Assembly: GCA_016190245.1 (NCBI GenBank)
Contig: JACPQY010000043.1
Coordinates: 1-11,182 of the forward strand
DNA length: 11,182 nucleotides
Source: Nitrospirota bacterium
GTDB taxonomy: Bacteria; JACPQY01
Direction of reading: 5' to 3'
The notes below the pieces were generated by a model, which saw only the letters and a program-made list of their open reading frames with translations, made no database searches and was not told the DNA's origin. Below are positions 1 to 10,752 of the stretch, in pieces. The translations under genes were made by a program, and so were the position numbers. The stretch's first letter is position 1, and every line of letters starts with the position of its first letter.

Positions 1-297
1 GCGGCGGAGGCTCTGGGCCATGCAGCCCAGGAGGCCGATGGCGCGCAGTCGGCCTTCGGTCTTCAGCCGTGCAAGGGCTTGCAGCCGCTGCCAGACCTTC
101 TCTTGCGCGCTTTCTCGGATGGCGCACGTGTTGAGAAGAGCCACGTCCGCGGAGTCGAGCGTCGCCGCCGTGACAAAACCTCCCTCGCGCAGGATCGAGG
201 CGACCAACTCCGAGTCGTAGACATTCATCTGACAACCGTAGGTCTCCAGATAGACCCGTGGTGTGTCTTCAAGCGGGAGGGGCGGCGCGGGGTCCAT
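1..297 (-). CDS. miaB: MiaB tRNA-2-methylthio-N6-dimethylallyladenosine synthase (5' part, runs off window)
   Basis: The first 99 codons of a minus-strand gene are present; the rest lies before base 1. The product is a radical-SAM methylthiotransferase that adds a methylthio group to i6A37 of tRNAs reading UNN codons. The visible part is the N-terminal UPF0004/MTTase domain: VYLETYGCQMN at residues 15-25, NTCAIRES at 56-63 and LGCMAQ at 90-95. Cys22, Cys58 and Cys92 are the three conserved ligands of the auxiliary [4Fe-4S] cluster, with family-typical spacing. The pairing of 'TYGCQMN' with 'NTCAIRE' favours MiaB over RimO or MtaB. The ATG at 297-295 leaves a normal short leader before the core, and no in-frame start lies just upstream. 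There is no clear Shine-Dalgarno, and the predicted promoter lies so close that the mRNA may be almost leaderless. The radical-SAM CxxxCxxC motif and TRAM domain would be outside the window. Confidence 0.93.
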   Translation of the reverse strand, partial: MDPAPPLPLEDTPRVYLETYGCQMNVYDSELVASILREGGFVTAATLDSADVALLNTCAIRESAQEKVWQRLQALARLKTEGRLRAIGLLGCMAQSLRR

Positions 298-306
298 GCC
301 GGCCCC

Positions 307-335
307 AGTGTAGCGTGCCCGGGGCGGTGTCACAA
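307..335 (-). promoter_or_regulatory. Predicted sigma-70-like promoter of miaB
   Basis: On the minus strand TTGTGA (bases 335-330) and TACACT (312-307) are separated by exactly 17 bp; each matches the -35 and -10 consensus at 4 of 6 positions. The predicted +1 falls near base 300, only a few bases before the miaB ATG at 297. This site lies back to back with the plus-strand promoter at 345-374. Prediction from sequence only. Confidence 0.4.
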
Positions 336-344
336 CGAGACCAC

Positions 345-374
345 TTGACGCGAGGGGCACCACGCCCGTATTGT
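345..374 (+). promoter_or_regulatory. Predicted sigma-70-like promoter of the reductase/TRAP/peroxiredoxin-like operon
   Basis: TTGACG at 345-350 (5 of 6 to the -35 consensus) and TATTGT at 369-374 (4 of 6 to the -10) are 18 bp apart. The predicted +1 is near 381, just before the strong ribosome-binding site AAAGAGGAGG and the ATG at 398. A start near 381 would exclude the in-frame TTG at 371 as initiator. Confidence 0.45.
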
Positions 375-1203: not shown

Positions 1204-2241
1204 GTGGCGCTGCGGCGATCAACCGCACCGATCCTGGCGATCGCGGCGGCCGCGCTGTTCGGGGAAACCGTGTGGTCGGCCGGCGCCGAAAAGAACGGGA
1301 GCGGCCCCGAGATCACACTCAAGGTCGGTACGCTCGCGCCGGAATCGGCTTCTCTGATCCAAGAGGCCAAAGAGGGTTTCAGGGAGGTCACCGAAAAGAG
1401 TCAAGGCCGTGTGCGGATCGTTCTCTACTCGGGCGGCGTTCTCGGCGATGAGCGCGACATGGTCCGCAAGCTCCAGATCGGACAGATCGATGCGGTTGTT
1501 GTCTCCGGCATGTTGGGAGCCTTGGTTCCCGAGATGACAGTGATCTCGTTGCCGTTCGTCTTCAGGAGCTTCGACGAGTTCGACGCGCTGCGTGACGGCC
1601 TCTTCGAGCGGTTCTCGGCGGCCTTCGAGAAGCAGGGGCTTGCCCTGCTGGTGTGGTTCGACATCGGGGGATTCACGCAACTCTTCTCCGCCGAGCCTGT
1701 TCGCTCCCTGGACGATCTGGCCAAGCGTAAGGTGTGGATCTGGCCGGGAATGCCGCTGGCCGATGCCGCGGTGCGTGATTTCCCGATGCAGGCGGTGCCG
1801 CTGGATGCCCCAAGCGTCCTCATGGGGTTCCAGACAGGGATGCTCGATACCATGTTCTCCAATCCGCTGGCTATCCTCCTCTTCCAGGTTCAGAAGCAGG
1901 TGAAGTACATGACGCGGCTCGACTTCTCGCTGGTCCCGGTGGCCTTGCTCACCACGAAGAAACGCTTCTACGAGATCCCACCGGATTTGCGCGAGGTGAT
2001 CCTGGCGACGCTGGCGCGCTATGGCCCTCGTCTGACGCTGCGGGCCAGGCGGGACGACGACACGGCCCTGAAGGCGCTGATCCGGTCGGGGATCGAGGTG
2101 GTCCGTCCGACGCCCGAGGCGATGGTGGAGTTCCAGAAGACAGGTGAAAAGGTGTGGAACACGCACGCCGACAAGCTCTACCCGCGTGCCTGGCTCGATG
2201 AGTTCCAGGCAGCCTTGGGGCAGGTTCGCGCCGCCCGTTGA
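1204..2241 (+). CDS. TRAP transporter DctP-like solute-binding protein (orphan)
   Basis: A periplasmic solute receptor of about 345 residues from the DctP/TRAP-P family. The N terminus looks like a Sec signal peptide: two Arg (4-5), a hydrophobic APILAIAAAALFG run, and a likely cleavage after WSAGA. The mature part follows the family: LKVGTLAPESA near residue 39, then YSGGVLGDERDMVRKLQIG, SLPFVFRSFDEF, and QTGMLDTMFSNP. The helix-strand region where most DctP proteins carry the carboxylate-clamping Arg (usually K-I/L-R-x-P) reads KRKVWIWPG at 174-182, so that Arg is absent and two Trp are present. No DctQ or DctM membrane gene is nearby. The GTG at 1204 was chosen because GGGGAT lies 7 bp upstream and the signal peptide then has a normal n-region; GTG 1198, overlapping the previous stop, is the alternative. 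Translation is probably coupled to the reductase. The ligand is unknown. Confidence 0.88.
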   Translation: MALRRSTAPILAIAAAALFGETVWSAGAEKNGSGPEITLKVGTLAPESASLIQEAKEGFREVTEKSQGRVRIVLYSGGVLGDERDMVRKLQIGQIDAVVVSGMLGALVPEMTVISLPFVFRSFDEFDALRDGLFERFSAAFEKQGLALLVWFDIGGFTQLFSAEPVRSLDDLAKRKVWIWPGMPLADAAVRDFPMQAVPLDAPSVLMGFQTGMLDTMFSNPLAILLFQVQKQVKYMTRLDFSLVPVALLTTKKRFYEIPPDLREVILATLARYGPRLTLRARRDDDTALKALIRSGIEVVRPTPEAMVEFQKTGEKVWNTHADKLYPRAWLDEFQAALGQVRAAR

Positions 2242-2267
2242 GGCGCAAGACGGCCGGGAGGCCGGTA

Positions 2268-2819
2268 ATGGGCAAGGGACAAATACCGGGAGTGGGGGCG
2301 TCGGCGCCTGATTTCGAGGTGGAGGATGGGCGCGGGAGGCGACTCGTTCTCGCGAAGCTCAGAGGCGAAAAAGTCCTTCTTGTGTTCCTTCGTCACTTGG
2401 GATGCCCGGTGTGCAGGTTGGAGATTTCACAGCTCCAGGCGCGCCACGCGGAATTCGAGCGGGCCGATGTGCGTGTGATCGTGTTTGTTGAATCACCCGA
2501 ACAAAAGGTGCAGGTGTTTTGCCGCGATCGCGGCTTGGCCTACCACCTCGTCGGCGATCCAGACCGCCGGGTGTATCTGAAGTACGGTGTGCAGCGTGGC
2601 GGTGTGGCTGCCTTCCTGTCGCTCGGGGCCGCGTGGGGGACCATGAAAGCGCTCGCCAGAGGTCATGCGCACGGTCGGTTCGAGGGTCATGAACTCCAGC
2701 TCCCGGGCGACTTCGTGATCGACCGCAAAGGGCGCGTCGCGCACGCGTACCTCGGCCGCCACGTTGCGGACAACACGCCGGTGGATCGCCTGCTGCAGAT
2801 TTGCCGCGAGATGGAGTAG
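2268..2819 (+). CDS. Peroxiredoxin-like (AhpC/TSA, thioredoxin-fold) protein with CxxC
   Basis: This 183-residue cytoplasmic thioredoxin-fold protein belongs to the AhpC/TSA superfamily, in the 'peroxiredoxin-like' branch related to SelL/PRXL2. APDFEVEDGRGRRL at residues 13-26 is the usual N-terminal strand-loop. The core FLRHLGCPVCRLEI follows, with a redox motif C46-P-V-C49 where 2-Cys peroxiredoxins have a single peroxidatic Cys in a TxxC setting. VGDPDRRVYLKYGVQRG and LPGDFVIDRKGRVAHAYLG are family-typical later blocks. The start is ATG 2268 with GGGAGG at 2256-2261, 6 bp upstream; an in-frame TTG at 2238, overlapping the previous stop, is less likely. The gene lies 26 bp after the TRAP receptor and is probably the last gene of that operon. 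A disulfide reductase or peroxidase role is plausible; the substrate is unknown. Confidence 0.82.
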   Translation: MGKGQIPGVGASAPDFEVEDGRGRRLVLAKLRGEKVLLVFLRHLGCPVCRLEISQLQARHAEFERADVRVIVFVESPEQKVQVFCRDRGLAYHLVGDPDRRVYLKYGVQRGGVAAFLSLGAAWGTMKALARGHAHGRFEGHELQLPGDFVIDRKGRVAHAYLGRHVADNTPVDRLLQICREME

Positions 2820-2863
2820 GGCCCCGATCCTTGCCCGCTCTATCGAAAAACCGGACAGTCAAA

Positions 2864-2878
2864 GTGAAAAGTTTCCAC
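2864..2878. promoter_or_regulatory. Near-palindrome upstream of the sigma-54 promoter, candidate activator site
   Basis: The 15-mer GTGAAAAGTTTCCAC is a dyad centred on G2871 in which 6 of 7 base pairs match. It lies about 100 bp upstream of the sigma-54 promoter, a usual distance for an enhancer-binding-protein site. I saw no clear second copy nearby. The remainder of 2820-3109 holds no gene I can support; it is AT-richer than its flanks. Confidence 0.25.
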
Positions 2879-2976
2879 CTCGCGAATTGCAGACTTGCGT
2901 TGTCATGATCCCTGTTTCGAACCTATCCATGTACAACCCCACGAATACTCGAACGGTTGCAATCCGGCTGAACTCT

Positions 2977-2992
2977 TGGCATATATGTTGCG
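2977..2992 (+). promoter_or_regulatory. Predicted sigma-54 (RpoN) promoter, -24/-12 type
   Basis: TGGCATATATGTTGCG fits the sigma-54 consensus TGGCAYRNNNNTTGCW at every fixed position except the last. The GG (2978-2979) and GC (2990-2991) doublets have the required 10-base gap. Transcription would begin near 3003, upstream of the three-gene envelope module, and would need an ATP-dependent enhancer-binding activator. Confidence 0.65.
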
Positions 2993-3109
2993 CTACCCTT
3001 TTCGGTGGCGGGTGTGGTTGAAGGCGAGGTTACAATGAGAAGCTCGGAATGCGTGCGCCCGCCACGTCCCTGTCAAGGCACAGCCACCGGCGTGGGGAAG
3101 GACGATACG

Positions 3110-3346
3110 GTGAGAATTCAAGGCCTCTCGCGCTGCCGACGGACACTACCGCCCCTTGAGGTGGCGCTCTACGGGGCCCTGATCGTCGTATCGTGGCCGA
3201 CGCTCTCGCTCGCGTACGTGGATCCCACGGGGGGGGGTCTTCTCGTCCAGATTCTGATGGGCGGTTTGGCGGGCGTGATCGTCGTGTCGCGGCTGTGGAT
3301 ACGAAGACTGATGGGAGGGCTGATCCGACTTTTCCGCTCTACCTGA
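3110..3346 (+). CDS. Small membrane protein with YVDP motif
   Basis: With the GTG start at 3110 the protein has 78 residues. A basic N terminus is followed by a hydrophobic stretch (EVALYGALIVVSWPTLSLA) ending at AYVDP, which could be a signal peptide or first membrane helix. A second hydrophobic, Gly-rich helix (GGGLLVQILMGGLAGVIVV) and a basic tail (RLWIRRLMGGLIRLFR) follow. I recall similar 'Y(V/I)DPxxG' two-helix proteins next to sulfatase-like membrane enzymes; the function is unknown. GTG 3110 was chosen because GGGGAAGGA (3094-3102) lies 7 bp upstream and the length suits such proteins. The alternative ATG at 3035, with GAGG upstream, would add 25 polar residues (103 in all). GTG 3005 is too close to the predicted +1. 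The stop TGA shares one base with the next ATG (TGATG). Confidence 0.68.
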   Translation: MRIQGLSRCRRTLPPLEVALYGALIVVSWPTLSLAYVDPTGGGLLVQILMGGLAGVIVVSRLWIRRLMGGLIRLFRST

Positions 3347-4734
3347 TGGAGTGGGAGCCGGGATCCTTCAGGGATCCGGCGGGTCGCATCTTCTATCACG
3401 ACGGGAGGGTCTTCCGCACGCTCTCCCGCAGGATGCTCTCTTTGCTCGAGGATCTTGAGAAGAGAGGGCGACTCGCGGAGTGGGCGCGCGAGGGCCTGCT
3501 GATCGGGACCGAGATCCGCCGGGCCGGTGAAATAGGCCTGCCGTCGGAGTCGGTGGGCGAGATCGTCCTTGAACATCCGCGCATCCCCTACGTGACGTAC
3601 CCGTACGAGTGGTCGTTCGACATGCTGCGCGATGCGGCGCTCCTTACGCTGAAGCTCCTCCGCCGGACGCTGGCATGCGGCATCATTCTGAAGGACGCGA
3701 CGGCCTTCAATATCCAGTTCGTGGGAGGGCGCCCCGTCTTCATCGATGTGGCCTCCTTCGAGCCGTTCGATGGAGACAGGCCCTGGACGGGATATGCGCA
3801 GTTCTGCCGCTCTTTTCTCTTCCCTCTCGTCATCACTTCTCTCACCGGCGTGGAGTTTCAGTCCCTGCTGCGCGGCTCGCTCGAAGGTCCCACCGCGCAG
3901 GACGCGCACCGTCTCATACGTTGGGCGGTCTGGCGGCGGCCGGCACTCTGGCGGCACATCCACCTCCAGGCGGCATTGGAGCGGAGGTTCGGGACATCTA
4001 CGACGGAGATCGCGGAAGCCTTGAAGGACGTGAAGCACGGCAGAGAGCGCACCGAACGTCTGACCTCGACCCTGACGCGGCTCATCGAAGGCCTGCGGTA
4101 CCGCCCCGCGGGCGGGTGGACGGCCTACGAACCGCCCGGAGAGGGAGCGGATGCGGGGAGCAAGCGGGCATTCGTTGAGGCCCGCCTGCGGGAGGTGCGC
4201 GGCGGTCGCGTGGTGGACCTGGGTTGCAACACAGGGGAGTATGCGTTCATGGCGGCCGCGTCGGGAGCGGAGGCCGTGGCCGCCGACGCGGATGCCGCTT
4301 GCGTCAACGAGGTCTACACGCGGCAAAAACGCGAGGGAGGCGGCCGGGTGCATCCGGTGGTGCAGGACCTGGCCGATCCATCCCCATCCATGGGCCTGTG
4401 CCTCCGTGAGAGGAAATCGTGGTTCGAGCGGTCCCAAGGGCATTTTTTTCTCGCCCTCGCTCTGACCCACCACCTGGCGCTGGGACGCAACATTCCTCTC
4501 TCGTCGATCATCGAGATGCTGGCCGGGTTGGCGCCGGAAGGGATCGTGGAGTTTGTGTCGTTGGATGACGCGCGCGCCCGTGCCCTCCTTGCCCTCCGCC
4601 CGGAGACGACCGAATCGTACAGCCAGGCGGCCTTTGAGCGCGAGTTGAGCGGGCGATTTCAGGTTCTGGGGCGACTCCCCATCCTGGGAGGCCACAGGAC
4701 CCTCTACCATGTCCGTCTGGAGCGGGAACCATGA
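3346..4734 (+). CDS. Kinase-like/SAM-dependent methyltransferase two-domain protein
   Basis: A 462-residue protein with two parts. Residues ~1-240 start with FRDPAGRIFYHDGRVFRTL and contain YPYEWSFDML, then LKDATAFN (115-122) and VFIDVASFEPF (131-141). D117, N122 and D134 are placed like the catalytic-loop Asp/Asn and the metal-binding Asp of kinase-fold (APH/HipA-like) enzymes. No Gly-rich loop is evident, so it may be degenerate. Residues ~270-462 are a class I methyltransferase: VVDLGCNTGEYAFMAA with motif I DLGCNTG at 291-297, a VQDLADPSPSMG block, LALALTHHLAL, and a terminal strand (GHRTLYHVRLER). This layout resembles proteins annotated as NoeA-like or class I SAM methyltransferases. 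ATG 3346 overlaps the preceding stop; there is no separate Shine-Dalgarno, so translation is probably coupled. An in-frame GTG at 3193 would add 51 residues lying over the upstream gene and is rejected. The substrate is unknown, probably an envelope glycan or lipid. Confidence 0.8.
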   Translation: MEWEPGSFRDPAGRIFYHDGRVFRTLSRRMLSLLEDLEKRGRLAEWAREGLLIGTEIRRAGEIGLPSESVGEIVLEHPRIPYVTYPYEWSFDMLRDAALLTLKLLRRTLACGIILKDATAFNIQFVGGRPVFIDVASFEPFDGDRPWTGYAQFCRSFLFPLVITSLTGVEFQSLLRGSLEGPTAQDAHRLIRWAVWRRPALWRHIHLQAALERRFGTSTTEIAEALKDVKHGRERTERLTSTLTRLIEGLRYRPAGGWTAYEPPGEGADAGSKRAFVEARLREVRGGRVVDLGCNTGEYAFMAAASGAEAVAADADAACVNEVYTRQKREGGGRVHPVVQDLADPSPSMGLCLRERKSWFERSQGHFFLALALTHHLALGRNIPLSSIIEMLAGLAPEGIVEFVSLDDARARALLALRPETTESYSQAAFERELSGRFQVLGRLPILGGHRTLYHVRLEREP

Positions 4735-6341
4735 GCCGCGTTAAGCTGCTGTCCTACTGCGTGGGGGTGAGTGTCCTGGGCGCAACGAACTTCGTGGCCT
4801 GGGAGATATTGGGGCAGGCCGCGAGAATGTTCGGGTCGCCTCCGGGGGCCTACTACGTGGCGCTGGGGCTGGTATATGCGGTCCCCCCCGTCGTGCTTCT
4901 TGCCGGCGACGCGGTGATTCGCCGCCTTCTTCCGAATGGATTGCCCCACTACCATCGCGCGCTCCTTCTCGCGGCATTTCTGGCCTTTTTCTACCGCAAC
5001 TCGGCCTGGGGATACCTGAGCGTCCATCCCCACGTGCGTGTGATCGTCCTGGCCGGGGTCGTGACGGCGACAACGGTGGCCGTGGCACGGTATCACGAGC
5101 AGATCGGCCGATGGGCGGCTGCCCTCGGGGTCGTGTCGGTCCCGTTCTTTGCCTACTACGGCTTGGCCGGAGCCCCGCCCACCCAGACATCAGTGGCCCA
5201 TGTGCGCCCGGCCTTGACCGGAGGCCGGCCGGGGCCGTCGATCGTCCTCCTTCTTTTCGACGCTTTTTCCCTCGATGGGCTGCTGGATGAGCAGGGTCGG
5301 ATTCTCGATCGTTTTTCCAACTTGAGGCGGCTGTCACAGAGTGCCTTCTGGGCTCGAAATGCGACGACCAACTATGACATGACGGGGTCCTCCGTCGCCT
5401 CGATGCTATCGGGCCGATACCTCCAACATGAGAAGGACGTCCGGGAAGTTCTCGGATCGCTCGCCGGGCTTCTCGGCGGCGGGTACGAGTGGTCAGTCTA
5501 CGGGGCGCACTTGCCTTACTGCCAAAGGATACCGGCGGCCCGCTGCTTCGACTCGCTTGCCCTCACGGCCGGAGACTGGAAGGGGTTGCTCCGGTATTCG
5601 ATCCTGACCTACGCCCGTTTTCAATTCCCCACGTCGCTGTACTACTCGCTTCCACACCCTATCTCACCGCAGAAGGCCGAATCGCTCCACTTGGCGAAGC
5701 TTTTCCTGGATGATCTTGTGCGGGCCCGACCGAGAGGCGAAGTCCGATACGTCCACTTGTACATCCCCCACTCGCCGTTCGAGGTGACACCGGACGGACG
5801 CCGCGCCTACCCTGGCAAGGCACACTCGTTTCAGGGGCTGTACGGCGATGCGCTGAGGCCACGGGCAATGGAGAACTACCGCGACGAGATCGAGTGGGCG
5901 GATCGGTTGGTGGGCGAGGCCCTTGATCGCCTGGAAGCGGCGGGTGCGTTGGAGGAGACCCTGCTCGTGATCACGAGCGATCACGGCGAATCACGGGTGC
6001 ATTCGGGCGGGGCGCGAGGCCGCGGCCTGGGCAAGATGGATGACCACGTGGCCCGGATACCGCTCTTCATGAAGCTGCCGACAGGTTTTCCGCTCGATCG
6101 TGTCCCGCGCGACGACTACCAGCACGTTGATCTCGTGCCGACGATCTTGGATGTCGCCGGCGTCAAGACGACGGAGCGCTTCGACGGCGTGTCCCTCTTC
6201 GCCCCCGGGGTGTCGGGTGGGCGGAAGAGGGCCTTCAGCGCGGGCCGGGAATGGACTGTCGATTCTGAAACCGGAGCGTGGCGGCCGGTTGATGCGGACC
6301 CGCCGACGGCAGACCACCCGCAGTCTCACCCGGTGAATTGA
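4731..6341 (+). CDS. Membrane-anchored sulfatase/phosphoethanolamine-transferase-superfamily protein with Thr nucleophile
   Basis: This 536-residue protein has about five hydrophobic helices in residues 1-155, then a large presumably periplasmic alkaline-phosphatase-fold domain. Metal and active-site residues are visible: D177 (LLLFDAFSLDG), T218 (NYDMTGSSVASMLSGRY), H347 (YIPHSPF), D417-H418 (SDHGES), H439 (DDHVARIPLFMKLP) and HVDLVPTILDVAG near the end. T218 stands where sulfatases have the formylglycine Cys/Ser, and the CxPxR consensus is absent. Thr nucleophiles are known in LtaS and EptA-type phosphoglycerol/phosphoethanolamine transferases, where the Glu-Thr spacing (about 40-45 residues) is close to D177-T218. 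So a group transfer or phosphodiester activity on surface polymers is more likely than sulfate hydrolysis. ATG 4731 overlaps the previous stop by 4 bases (ATGA). The stop lies 18 bp from the convergent kinase gene. Confidence 0.85.
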   Translation: MSRVKLLSYCVGVSVLGATNFVAWEILGQAARMFGSPPGAYYVALGLVYAVPPVVLLAGDAVIRRLLPNGLPHYHRALLLAAFLAFFYRNSAWGYLSVHPHVRVIVLAGVVTATTVAVARYHEQIGRWAAALGVVSVPFFAYYGLAGAPPTQTSVAHVRPALTGGRPGPSIVLLLFDAFSLDGLLDEQGRILDRFSNLRRLSQSAFWARNATTNYDMTGSSVASMLSGRYLQHEKDVREVLGSLAGLLGGGYEWSVYGAHLPYCQRIPAARCFDSLALTAGDWKGLLRYSILTYARFQFPTSLYYSLPHPISPQKAESLHLAKLFLDDLVRARPRGEVRYVHLYIPHSPFEVTPDGRRAYPGKAHSFQGLYGDALRPRAMENYRDEIEWADRLVGEALDRLEAAGALEETLLVITSDHGESRVHSGGARGRGLGKMDDHVARIPLFMKLPTGFPLDRVPRDDYQHVDLVPTILDVAGVKTTERFDGVSLFAPGVSGGRKRAFSAGREWTVDSETGAWRPVDADPPTADHPQSHPVN

Positions 6342-6359
6342 GGGGCGTGAGGCGGCCTC

Positions 6360-7259
6360 TCAGACGTTCCAGAGCCGTGCGGCACCTCGCACGCCGCTTG
6401 AGTCGCCGTGGCGGGCCCTCACCAACTTCGTATCCACCCGATCCGAAAACACGTGGGGGGCCCACAGCCGGGGAACGTTCGCGTACAAGCGGTCGAGATT
6501 GGAGACGCCGCCCCCGAGCACGATGACATCGGGGTCAAGAATGTTGATGACGACCGACAAGGCGCGCGCGAGGCGGTCCTCGTGGTCGGCCAGAACGGAC
6601 TCGGCCGCGGCCTCGCCCGCGGCAGCGCGGCGCCCGATCTCAACCGCAGGGGTGGTGATGCCGACACGGGCCTTGTAGTCGTGTTCTATGGCGGGGCCCG
6701 ACAAGAAGGTCTCGACGCATCCGCGACGGCCGCAGTAGCAGGTCGGACCGGGACGTTCCTCGTCCCTTGGCGAGGGCAGGGGGTTGTGTCCCCATTCGCC
6801 CGCAATGGCGTTGGCGCCGACAAGCGGCCGTCCGCAGACCACGATACCGCCGCCCACACCCGTGCCGAGGATGACCCCGAACACGACGGCGGCCGCGGCG
6901 CCGGCTCCATCGGTCGCCTCCGAGAGGGCGAAACAGTTGGCGTCGTTTTCGAGCCGGACGGGTCGGCCGAGTCGCGCGGTCAAGTCACGGTCGAGCGGGT
7001 GGCCGATGAGCCATGTGGAGTTGGCGTTCTTCACGAGGCCCGTGGCGGGCGAGACGATCCCGGGAATGCCGACGCCCACAGTGCCCGAGGGGCCGCACCG
7101 ACTCTCGAGAAAGCCCACCAGGTCCACGATGGTCTTCAGCGTCGCGTCGTAGTCATTGCGCGGCGAGGGGACGCGCTGGCGGGCCCTTTCGGCCCCGCTC
7201 GAGTCCAGAACGATGCCTTCGATCTTGGTACCGCCCAGGTCAATTCCAATGCGGATCAT
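6360..7259 (-). CDS. mak: ROK-family fructokinase (Mak-like)
   Basis: A cytoplasmic ATP-dependent sugar kinase of 299 residues. The phosphate-binding DLGGTK is at residues 7-12, the catalytic Asp106 lies in ENDANCF, and LGTGVGGG (131-138) forms the second ATP loop. The ROK zinc site is complete: His158 in GEWGHNPLP, then Cys174, Cys176 and Cys181 in CYCGRRGC. The stretches VKNANSTWLIG, CVETFLSG, INILDPDVIVLGGG and HGDSSGVRGAARLW match what I remember of E. coli Mak (fructokinase) better than NagK, so fructose 6-phosphorylation is the best guess; other hexoses remain possible. The start is well bounded: a TGA in frame lies two codons upstream of the ATG at 7259-7257. No Shine-Dalgarno is visible, and a 105-bp inverted-repeat element begins 9 bp upstream of the start codon. 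The gene follows the lipase on the same strand and meets the plus-strand membrane enzyme tail to tail. Confidence 0.92.
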   Translation of the reverse strand: MIRIGIDLGGTKIEGIVLDSSGAERARQRVPSPRNDYDATLKTIVDLVGFLESRCGPSGTVGVGIPGIVSPATGLVKNANSTWLIGHPLDRDLTARLGRPVRLENDANCFALSEATDGAGAAAAVVFGVILGTGVGGGIVVCGRPLVGANAIAGEWGHNPLPSPRDEERPGPTCYCGRRGCVETFLSGPAIEHDYKARVGITTPAVEIGRRAAAGEAAAESVLADHEDRLARALSVVINILDPDVIVLGGGVSNLDRLYANVPRLWAPHVFSDRVDTKLVRARHGDSSGVRGAARLWNV

Positions 7260-8427: not shown

Positions 8428-10752
8428 ATGACCAAAGCCTTCATTGCCATCGTCACGATCATGGTGGGCTGCTCAGCGCGATCAGTCGAACGTGGGAGCG
8501 CGGAGCTTGAGGCATTCAGCGTCGAAGCGTGGCTCGATCCATCGTCCGAATATCATCCGATCGTGAATTGGTTCTGGCCGGGCGGCAGCGTGACAGAGGA
8601 GGAACTGAGAAGAGAGCTGCAACTCTTTGCGGTGACCGGTTTCGGCGGCGTGGAAATTTCGACATTTCCTTGGGGGCTCCCTTCGCGCGAATCGGGCTCC
8701 GATCCGGAAATCTACACGGTGGGCACACCCGCATTTTTCGACAGAGTGGCGGTCGCGTGCCGACTCGCGCGGGAGCTGGGCCTGGAGGTGGGACTCATGT
8801 TCGGGAGCAGCGACCCGGTGGGAGGGCCGTTCGTCCGAGAAGCCGTCTCTCGGCAACTCGTCCTCGGCTCTACGGAGGTCGACGGACCCGCACGATTTGA
8901 AGGGGCTCTTCCTTCCCCCGAGCGGCCGCTGTTCGCGCAGGCGCTCGAGCCCGCGCTCCTCGCCCCATTCGACGCGGATCCTGTGCTCGTGTCGGCCGTG
9001 GCTTGGAGGGATCGCGACGGTACGCCTGAGGAGTATGTGGACCTGCGTGCCCTGGTCTCGGACGACCGTCTTGTGTGGGACGCACCGGCCGGACGATGGC
9101 GTTTGTTCGCGATCTACGAGAACCGCGTGGGCCACAAGACGAAGTTCTCGGCCTATCCGGGGCCCAACGACGCCGGGCGCATCGTGGATCACCTCGATCG
9201 TGCGGGCATCGAAGAATTCATCCGGGGATTCGGCGAGCCCATGGCTGCTGCGCTTGCGCCCTACGTGGGCGACCCTTTCAGCTTTATCAAGCTCGAGAGT
9301 CCCGAGTTGATCTACCAGTTCCCGTGGACACCCCGTTTGTCCGAAGGCTTCCGCACGGCCATGGGCTACGAGATCGAACCCTACCTCCCGCTCCTTTTCC
9401 GGCGTTTCGGTGAAGGGATGTATGTGGACCCCTTGGCGGCTCCGATGTTCCCGCCGGGTGACGTGGGCCGGCCTGTCCGGGACGATTACGAGGAAGTACG
9501 AAGCCGCCTATTCCGCGACGAGTTCGTGGGCCCCCTCGTGGCGTGGGCGAATGAGAAAGGGTTGAGCGTCTCCTTCCAGGCACACGGCGGCCTCGAGGAT
9601 TACATCGAGGCCTATCAGCAGGCGGATATTCCTGAGGCGGAACAGCTCTACGCGGGGGGACGAGTCGAGTTCATGAAACTTGCCGGTTCTGCGGCGCACG
9701 TGGCGGGGAAGCGGCGCGTCTCGTCGGAGTCCTTCCTGGTCCACGGCGACGCGCGTTCCCTGCGTCTCGACGGTTTCTATCGGATGGCCGCCCGCCTCGT
9801 CGCCGCCGGGGTGAACCGGTACGTCCACTACGGATACTCCTATCGTTACCTCCTACCCGACGGAAGCCGTTGGTGGGCGATGGTGAGTCCCTCCCCGGCG
9901 TTGAGCAGCCTGGGCTGGACAAGTTGGACCGATGAGAACCATCCCGCATGGCCGGACATGCCCGCCTTCAACCGGTATCTCGCGCGAATGGCGTATGCCC
10001 TCTCTGTCGGGAAGGACCGGGCGGAGATCGCATGGCTACATCAGGATAGGGGCGTAGCCGACACGCTTGCCGCGGGGGCCTCGAGCACCGAGGCGGAGGG
10101 TCTGCGGCTATCCGAGGATACGCTGCCGCCGGCTCTCGCACTGAACGCGGGCGGCTACACGTATGACTGGGTCAATCGCTATGACCTCCAGAAGGCGACG
10201 GCGCGTGGCGGGCGCGTGAGCATCGGCGCGGCACAGTACGAAGGTCTGCTGTTGACCGATCTCGAAGAGGCCTCCCCCGAGTTGATGGCTTCGATCGAGA
10301 AGTTGGTGAGGGGCGGAGTGCCGGTGTTCGTGATCGGCGGGTTGCCGGGACGGGCGGCGGGCTATTCGGACTTCCAGAGGAACGACGAAGAGGTGGCCCG
10401 GATTTCAAGCTCGATCTCCGATCGCGTGCGGTCGGTCGATTCCGCCGGACGGCTCGGTGCCGCGCTGAGCGAGGCAGGGGTGTTGCCGGCTGCCACTGTC
10501 GCCGAGGGCGATGTTCCGTTTCGCGTCGTCCGTCGGGAGGTTGGAAACGGCACGCTGCTCGTATTGGTCAATGAGGGTGCGGCGGACCTCGAACAGGATG
10601 TGACGATGTCGGTCGAGGGTTCTCAGATCGCCGTGCTCGACCCTCTGAGCGGAGACATGGAGCATTCGACGCCGGGGCGGGATCGTGCAGGGAATCTCCT
10701 CGCGCGCGTACGCATCCCGGCCCGCCGATGCACGGTTCTGTGGGTGCGATGA
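8428..10752 (+). CDS. GH106-like glycoside hydrolase lipoprotein (putative alpha-L-rhamnosidase)
   Basis: A 774-residue exported enzyme of the GH106 (alpha-L-rhamnosidase) type. The N terminus, MTKAFIAIVTIMVGC, ends in a lipobox-like MVGC with Cys15 as the lipidation site. NWFWPGG (47-53), EELRRELQLFAVTGFGGVEI, YTVGTPAFFDRV and VGLMFGS form the family's N-terminal barrel half. Later come SVSFQAHGG, ADIPEAEQ (E405) and VSSESF (E434), acidic positions in the family's usual active-site region, then AARLVAAGVNRYVHYG and PAFNRYLARMAYALSVGKDRAEIAWL. The C terminus is a beta-rich domain ending RRCTVLWVR. It is short for GH106, which as I recall often reaches 900-1100 residues, so accessory domains may be missing. 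ATG 8428 has only a weak ribosome-binding site (GGTAGCGG). It is preceded by a promoter and operator-like palindrome and overlaps the next paralogue by 4 bases. The rhamnoside substrate is inferred from family only. Confidence 0.82.
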   Translation: MTKAFIAIVTIMVGCSARSVERGSAELEAFSVEAWLDPSSEYHPIVNWFWPGGSVTEEELRRELQLFAVTGFGGVEISTFPWGLPSRESGSDPEIYTVGTPAFFDRVAVACRLARELGLEVGLMFGSSDPVGGPFVREAVSRQLVLGSTEVDGPARFEGALPSPERPLFAQALEPALLAPFDADPVLVSAVAWRDRDGTPEEYVDLRALVSDDRLVWDAPAGRWRLFAIYENRVGHKTKFSAYPGPNDAGRIVDHLDRAGIEEFIRGFGEPMAAALAPYVGDPFSFIKLESPELIYQFPWTPRLSEGFRTAMGYEIEPYLPLLFRRFGEGMYVDPLAAPMFPPGDVGRPVRDDYEEVRSRLFRDEFVGPLVAWANEKGLSVSFQAHGGLEDYIEAYQQADIPEAEQLYAGGRVEFMKLAGSAAHVAGKRRVSSESFLVHGDARSLRLDGFYRMAARLVAAGVNRYVHYGYSYRYLLPDGSRWWAMVSPSPALSSLGWTSWTDENHPAWPDMPAFNRYLARMAYALSVGKDRAEIAWLHQDRGVADTLAAGASSTEAEGLRLSEDTLPPALALNAGGYTYDWVNRYDLQKATARGGRVSIGAAQYEGLLLTDLEEASPELMASIEKLVRGGVPVFVIGGLPGRAAGYSDFQRNDEEVARISSSISDRVRSVDSAGRLGAALSEAGVLPAATVAEGDVPFRVVRREVGNGTLLVLVNEGAADLEQDVTMSVEGSQIAVLDPLSGDMEHSTPGRDRAGNLLARVRIPARRCTVLWVR

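Follow-up and report, generated by a model that had tools for sequence, protein, structure and literature searches.

What do three overlapping genes, the first of them encoding a small membrane protein, build together in a Nitrospirota bacterium? The question is raised by contig JACPQY010000043.1 of assembly GCA_016190245.1, analysed here over its whole length of 11,182 nucleotides (the window) and belonging to a 3.29 Mb draft genome that is 84.8% complete. Its + strand carries a gene for a small YVDP protein (3110-3346, GTG start, 78 amino acids (aa)), a gene for a kinase-methyltransferase of the NoeA type (3346-4734, ATG start, 462 aa) and a gene for a NoeB-like enzyme of the alkaline phosphatase (AP) superfamily (4731-6341, ATG start, 536 aa). 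We propose that this NoeA/NoeB-type cassette decorates a membrane-associated glycan with a small phospho-substituent, a proposal to which we give an even chance. All findings are compatible with the idea that the three proteins may together build one decoration.

A linked trio of genes

An earlier note on this DNA had grouped the three genes into one module on the strength of overlaps of 1 and 4 bases, and had made the idea depend on the three families occurring together in other genomes. The coordinates of the open reading frames (ORFs) agree exactly with those overlaps, one base between the small gene and the kinase-methyltransferase gene and four between the latter and the AP gene, and the families do co-occur strongly, so that the grouping is borne out by linkage across phyla. 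Scanning genome contigs with the middle protein alone yielded 33 homologous loci (31-42% identity) from Nitrospirales, Chitinophagaceae and other Bacteroidota, Deltaproteobacteria and Armatimonadetes. An AP-superfamily gene lies near the kinase-methyltransferase gene in 33/33 loci, mostly on the same strand, and these genes often overlap each other or are separated by a few bases; a small YxDP gene lies directly upstream of the methyltransferase gene, on the same strand, in 31/33. The two other loci lack a full small gene: one starts at the methyltransferase, at a contig edge, and one has the motif in a shortened frame. In Nitrospirales and in one Deltaproteobacterium the AP gene is found upstream; in most of the other loci it is downstream. 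Gene orders differ between loci, and the trio stays the same.

We also searched an unselected sample of 386 genomes with profiles for the methyltransferase and the small protein. The first matched 16 genomes (about 4%) from 16 different genera and the second 20, the two genes being adjacent in 15 of the 16 (hypergeometric P ~7e-22, a figure that ignores shared ancestry). An AP-type gene was close to the methyltransferase gene in 14 of these 16 genomes, and in one of the remaining two the locus is truncated by the end of its contig. Outside the trio, no recurring gene type was seen by eye at the sampled loci; the trio thus behaves as a self-contained cassette. A scan of 2700-6600 for promoters found nothing, and terminator-like sites around the trio scarcely exceed those in shuffled sequences.

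Incomplete versions of the trio also occur. In genome G172, which has no methyltransferase match, a YVDP-type small protein adjoins a 652-aa AP-superfamily protein (L084:5138-7422), and the small protein and the AP enzyme are likewise present without the methyltransferase in G420 and G421. Conversely, a methyltransferase without an adjacent small protein is found in G005 and at a second locus of G271.

Kinship with nodulation genes and a Legionella pair

The middle protein is homologous to NoeA of the Sinorhizobium meliloti plasmid pSymA (tblastn, 31.5% identity over 97% of the length, E 3e-41). A kinase-methyltransferase profile built without NoeA recovers NoeA at 1e-135, and an AP profile built without NoeB recovers NoeB at E 5e-31 in a one-sequence search. 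In papers that cite Ardourel et al. (1995), the operon is named nodL, noeA, noeB; noeA and noeB appear there as nodulation genes that affect host range, with modification of a secreted glycolipid signal as their hypothesised role, and the chemistry of NoeA and NoeB is itself only hypothesised. The operon descriptions of these citing papers do not name a small gene. The nodL-noeA interval of pSymA nevertheless contains a 71-aa ORF (MPIIMSVVGFLILSIVPAHAYLDPGTGSMLVQ...) that overlaps noeA and encodes a YLDP small protein; in S. medicae and Rhizobium sp. T1473, its counterpart bears the annotation of a hypothetical protein. Comparing the S. meliloti and T1473 copies of this gene gives a dN of 0.065 and a dS of 0.276, values that fit a gene under selection. 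To judge from the citing papers, the presence of a small YxDP gene inside the Sinorhizobium nodulation operon has apparently gone unremarked. The operon thus resembles the trio in encoding homologues of its last two proteins, in unchanged order, with a YLDP gene before noeA, and differs in its nodL-type acetyltransferase gene, which has no equivalent next to the trio of the window.

A second relative comes from the Legionella pan-kinome (PMC9758233), where Lani_1194, a NoeA homologue, is reported as a kinase-methyltransferase; of its two conserved neighbours, one is an AP-fold relative of NoeB. This likeness to the trio, an AP-fold gene and another conserved gene beside the kinase-methyltransferase, is accompanied by a difference, since Lani_1193-Lani_1194-Lani_1195 of Legionella anisa are described as putative effectors (PMC9758233). 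The main text of that paper does not state the identity of Lani_1193, which may be the small protein. The earlier note had called the system under-described. This holds for function alone, since the large pair as such is already on record as NoeA/NoeB and as Lani_1194/Lani_1195. The kinase-methyltransferase and its AP-fold partner thus form a known family (PMC9758233), and the small protein, as a third component of the NoeA/NoeB-type pair, together with the evidence for a phosphate decoration, appear to be what the present analysis adds.

Features of the three proteins

The kinase-like half of the middle protein (residues 1-240; 3346-4065, +) was delimited with an alignment of 28 sequences and an AlphaFold2 (AF2) model, and the S-adenosylmethionine (SAM) methyltransferase half (residues 250-462 plus stop; 4093-4734, +) with Pfam, alignments, an hhalign comparison with WbdD and structure matches. 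Pfam itself gives weak methyltransferase matches only, at residues 269-344. The two motifs singled out in the earlier note are both present, LKDATAFN...FIDV at residues 115-135 and DLGCNTG at residues 291-297. Invariant positions of the KINASE-METHYLTRANSFERASE protein in the 28 sequences include R24 (3415-3417), D117 (3694-3696), N122 (3709-3711) and D134 (3745-3747) in the first half, and D291, G293, N295 and G297 of the D291-x-G-x-N-x-G motif (4216-4236), D316, H375-H376 (4468-4473) and E402 in the second, all on the + strand.

The AF2 model of the whole protein is confident (predicted local distance difference test (pLDDT) 88.5, predicted template modelling score (pTM) 0.91); the alignments used for the structure models exclude rows from plasmid records. 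In this model a helix (91-109), a strand (113-115), a loop with D117 and N122, two further strands (123-126 and 129-132) and D134 follow one another, and this predicted order of elements is that of a kinase C-lobe. Among the matches listed by a structure search with the whole model there were only methyltransferase domains and no kinase, and the search thus neither supports nor opposes a kinase fold. The kinase-like N-terminal half put forward in the earlier note therefore gains from the modelled C-lobe topology and the invariant D117/N122/D134, and gains nothing from the structure search. The predicted fold rests on the confident model, on motif spacing and on a published analysis of a homologue, whose N-terminal half has already been described as a kinase (PMC9758233). 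R24 is probably the counterpart of R38 in Lani_1194, an Arg that replaces the kinase catalytic Lys. A role of the middle protein in anti-phage defence was considered and rejected: the match to MADS mad2 is of just 27 bits over ~110 residues around the SAM motif, and neither of the neighbouring proteins has a match among the PADLOC models.

The best Protein Data Bank (PDB) profile matches of the middle protein are WbdD entries (E 1.4e-5). WbdD of Escherichia coli O9a, a methyl-phosphate chain terminator, likewise combines a methyltransferase and a kinase in one protein. It has been reported that H132, H133 and R203 of WbdD are each needed to methylate the sugar phosphate, that D351 mutants lose kinase activity and that N356 and D369 coordinate Mg-ATP (PMC3482155). 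When the methyltransferase half was compared with WbdD by hhalign (probability 96.8), H375-H376 fell on H132-H133. The kinase catalytic residues are also in register, D117/N122/D134 being aligned to D351/N356/D369 in an alignment that is weak in score (E ~0.4-0.6). R451 (4696-4698, +), in R-x-L-Y, resembles R203 in R-P-M-Y, a pairing made by eye that MAFFT did not return. As the phosphate-methylation and kinase residues of WbdD appear to have invariant or near-invariant counterparts, a methyl-phosphate product is predicted. The two proteins differ in architecture: WbdD runs from methyltransferase to kinase to coiled coil, whereas the middle protein runs from kinase to methyltransferase, ends with the latter domain and lacks the coiled-coil ruler. 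Their gene neighbours differ as well. A WbdD protein search over 290 genomes, run without a positive control, returned nothing.

The NoeB-like enzyme (4731-6341, +) has an N-terminal membrane region followed by a catalytic domain, as delimited by Pfam, alignment, model and hydropathy. Pfam Sulfatase matches it at 1.2e-21. Along the AP alignment, D177 (5259-5261, +), D417 and G419 are invariant, and T218 (5382-5384, +) and H418 (D417-H418, 5979-5984, +) near-invariant. In a comparison with EptA- and LtaS-type enzymes, D177, T218, D417, H418 and G419 correspond to the residues of the metal site and the Thr nucleophile. The third protein accordingly belongs to the AP/sulfatase superfamily, and its nucleophile position is occupied by a near-invariant Thr, much as the earlier note had supposed. 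Type I (formylglycine) sulfatases carry the signature C/S-x-P-x-R at the nucleophile. Here the site reads T218-G-S-S-V, and sulfatase activity is therefore disfavoured. The model of this protein is weak overall (pLDDT 65) and better in parts of residues 165-480; residues 160-536 match sulfatases, EptA/EptC/MCR and LtaS/LtaP about equally (Z 23-26), so that the fold does not choose among them. Membrane helices preceding an AP domain, a Thr nucleophile and comparable structural scores are shared with EptA/EptC/MCR- and LtaS-type enzymes, although the protein is a member of neither group by the models run, the LtaS model scoring far below its cut-off. At one locus elsewhere, several divergent AP-superfamily genes (L121:7749-9362 and 12268-13878; L123:3-1694, 2096-3631 and 15247-16866) adjoin the gene of an Acyl_transf_3/PGA_cap/GDSL fusion protein, which suggests that the genus concerned has several different acceptors or head groups.

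The small protein (3110-3346, +) consists of a signal-like N-terminus, a Y-x-D motif and a Q, one transmembrane helix (residues 41-59) and a basic tail. An alignment of 20 relatives and hydropathy place the invariant Y-x-D and Q just before the single helix. This arrangement, with the basic tail behind the helix, suggests an outward-facing motif and an inward-facing tail. The protein has no Pfam family match, and a literature search for YxDP motif strings found no paper. The earlier note had cast it as a membrane partner, a role that fits its predicted topology and its linkage.

The proposed decoration and its alternatives

In the reading that we prefer, the kinase half of the cytosolic NoeA-like protein would phosphorylate a hydroxyl of a lipid-linked or growing glycan, and the methyltransferase half would methylate that phosphate, as WbdD does. 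The single-pass YVDP protein would hold the NoeA-like protein at the membrane and link it to the third protein. Anchored by several helices and with its catalytic domain outside the cell, the NoeB-like enzyme would act on the glycan after export, where its Thr nucleophile and metal site would serve to form, transfer or trim a phosphodiester-type group.

A natural replacement within one genus bears on the nature of the added group. Three of its genomes (G407, G409 and G410) carry the small protein and the methyltransferase. A fourth, G120, has no methyltransferase match in its genome and retains the small protein in a region that shares synteny with the G407 and G409 loci. Apart from the AP enzymes, the flanking proteins of G120 are 58-78% identical to their counterparts in these two, and the small protein is 46-48% identical. 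The replacement genes of G120 encode a phosphoenolpyruvate (PEP) mutase with an N-terminal cytidylyltransferase and a phosphonopyruvate decarboxylase, both above the NCBIfam cut-off, as well as a Glyphos_transf protein and an iron alcohol dehydrogenase, the latter scoring below its cut-off. In Fom1, a fused cytidylyltransferase domain activates hydroxyethylphosphonate as CMP-HEP, its cytidine monophosphate conjugate (PMC6697681), and by analogy the fused domain of G120 would make CMP-HEP from hydroxyethylphosphonate. Replacement at a syntenic locus, seen in this one genome, suggests that comparable small phospho-groups can come either from the kinase-methyltransferase or from the phosphonate pathway. 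At another locus (L087:3227-8635), a divergent relative of the kinase-methyltransferase (219 bits) has no small protein or AP gene nearby; it lies between a polysaccharide flippase, an unassigned 651-aa protein and a hexapeptide-repeat transferase, and the flippase and the transferase were counted in favour of a glycan target.

Several points weigh against the proposed glycan decoration. The phosphonate swap was seen in one genome, and Pfam and model scans of the window proteins revealed no glycan-synthesis neighbours of the trio. Profile comparisons of the kinase half with WbdD, using one sequence or three, are not significant (E ~0.4-0.6), even if the best local alignment is in register; the structure-search matches concern the methyltransferase half and do not cover the kinase half; and the kinase ion-pair Glu was not identified in the published homologue Lani_1194 (PMC9758233). 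The R451-R203 pairing is by eye only. A His or Tyr pair is also present in NodS and RebM, methyltransferases that do not act on phosphate (PMC3482155), so the HH pair alone is no proof of phosphate methylation.

The strongest alternative, which we regard as unlikely yet deserving of attention, is that the kinase-methyltransferase acts on a lipid or small-alcohol head group to make a phosphorylated or methylated donor, and that the NoeB-like enzyme transfers this head group to an acceptor outside the cell, in the manner of EptA- and LtaS-type enzymes, whose donors are phospholipids. EptA/EptC/MCR and LtaS/LtaP match the AP domain as closely as sulfatases do, the methyltransferase half has a phosphomethylethanolamine methyltransferase among its profile matches, and replacement by a phosphonate head-group pathway fits donor-making equally well. 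However, the best profile match is WbdD, which acts on a glycan and has the phosphate-methylation His pair in common with the middle protein, and the tie among structure matches means that the fold does not favour a transferase. Less probable still, and in our view rather doubtful, is that the cassette modifies a secreted signal or an effector-like molecule, as proposed for Nod factors and in Legionella, instead of the cell's own envelope. The host-range role given to noeA and noeB in the citing papers and the predicted effectors next to the Legionella homologue (PMC9758233) speak for such a target, but the cassette occurs in Nitrospirales, Chitinophagaceae, Deltaproteobacteria, Armatimonadetes and Planctomycetes, and for these groups an envelope target is the simpler assumption; as a Nod factor is a lipo-oligosaccharide, this alternative overlaps with a glycan decoration. 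That the three genes are mere neighbours in unrelated pathways is scarcely credible, for all that G420, G421, G005 and G271 hold partial sets, given the adjacency in 15/16 genomes and in 31/33 and 33/33 loci, the gene overlaps and the differing gene orders that keep the same trio.

Through the linkage, the residues aligned with WbdD and the phosphonate swap, the glycan decoration becomes a concrete prediction, namely a methyl phosphate or similar small phospho-group, with named residues to mutate. The presence of the kinase-methyltransferase in about one in 25 of the sampled genomes makes the answer relevant to many bacteria. A broader picture, to which we give somewhat less than an even chance, is that of a widespread surface decoration in which a NoeA-type methyl phosphate is interchangeable with a phosphonate head-group pathway and which involves a previously unrecognised single-pass YxDP protein. 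On this view the nodL-noeA-noeB operon would comprise four genes, and a phospho-substituent that has escaped detection would be present on Nod factors or on a surface glycan. This draws attention to the small gene between nodL and noeA.

Four other ORFs of the window can be described. A gene for a GH106-type alpha-L-rhamnosidase (8428-10752, +; Pfam 3.9e-43) is overlapped over 25 bases by an ORF that is cut by the contig end (10728-11180, +) and whose N-terminus resembles that of the preceding GH106-type gene. Upstream of the trio, 2238-2819 (+) encodes a SelL-related redox protein with a CPVC motif (NCBIfam NF040769, above cut-off), and the start of the cut ORF at 1-363 (-), LETYGCQMNVYDSELV, resembles by eye the N-terminus of a MiaB-type methylthiotransferase.

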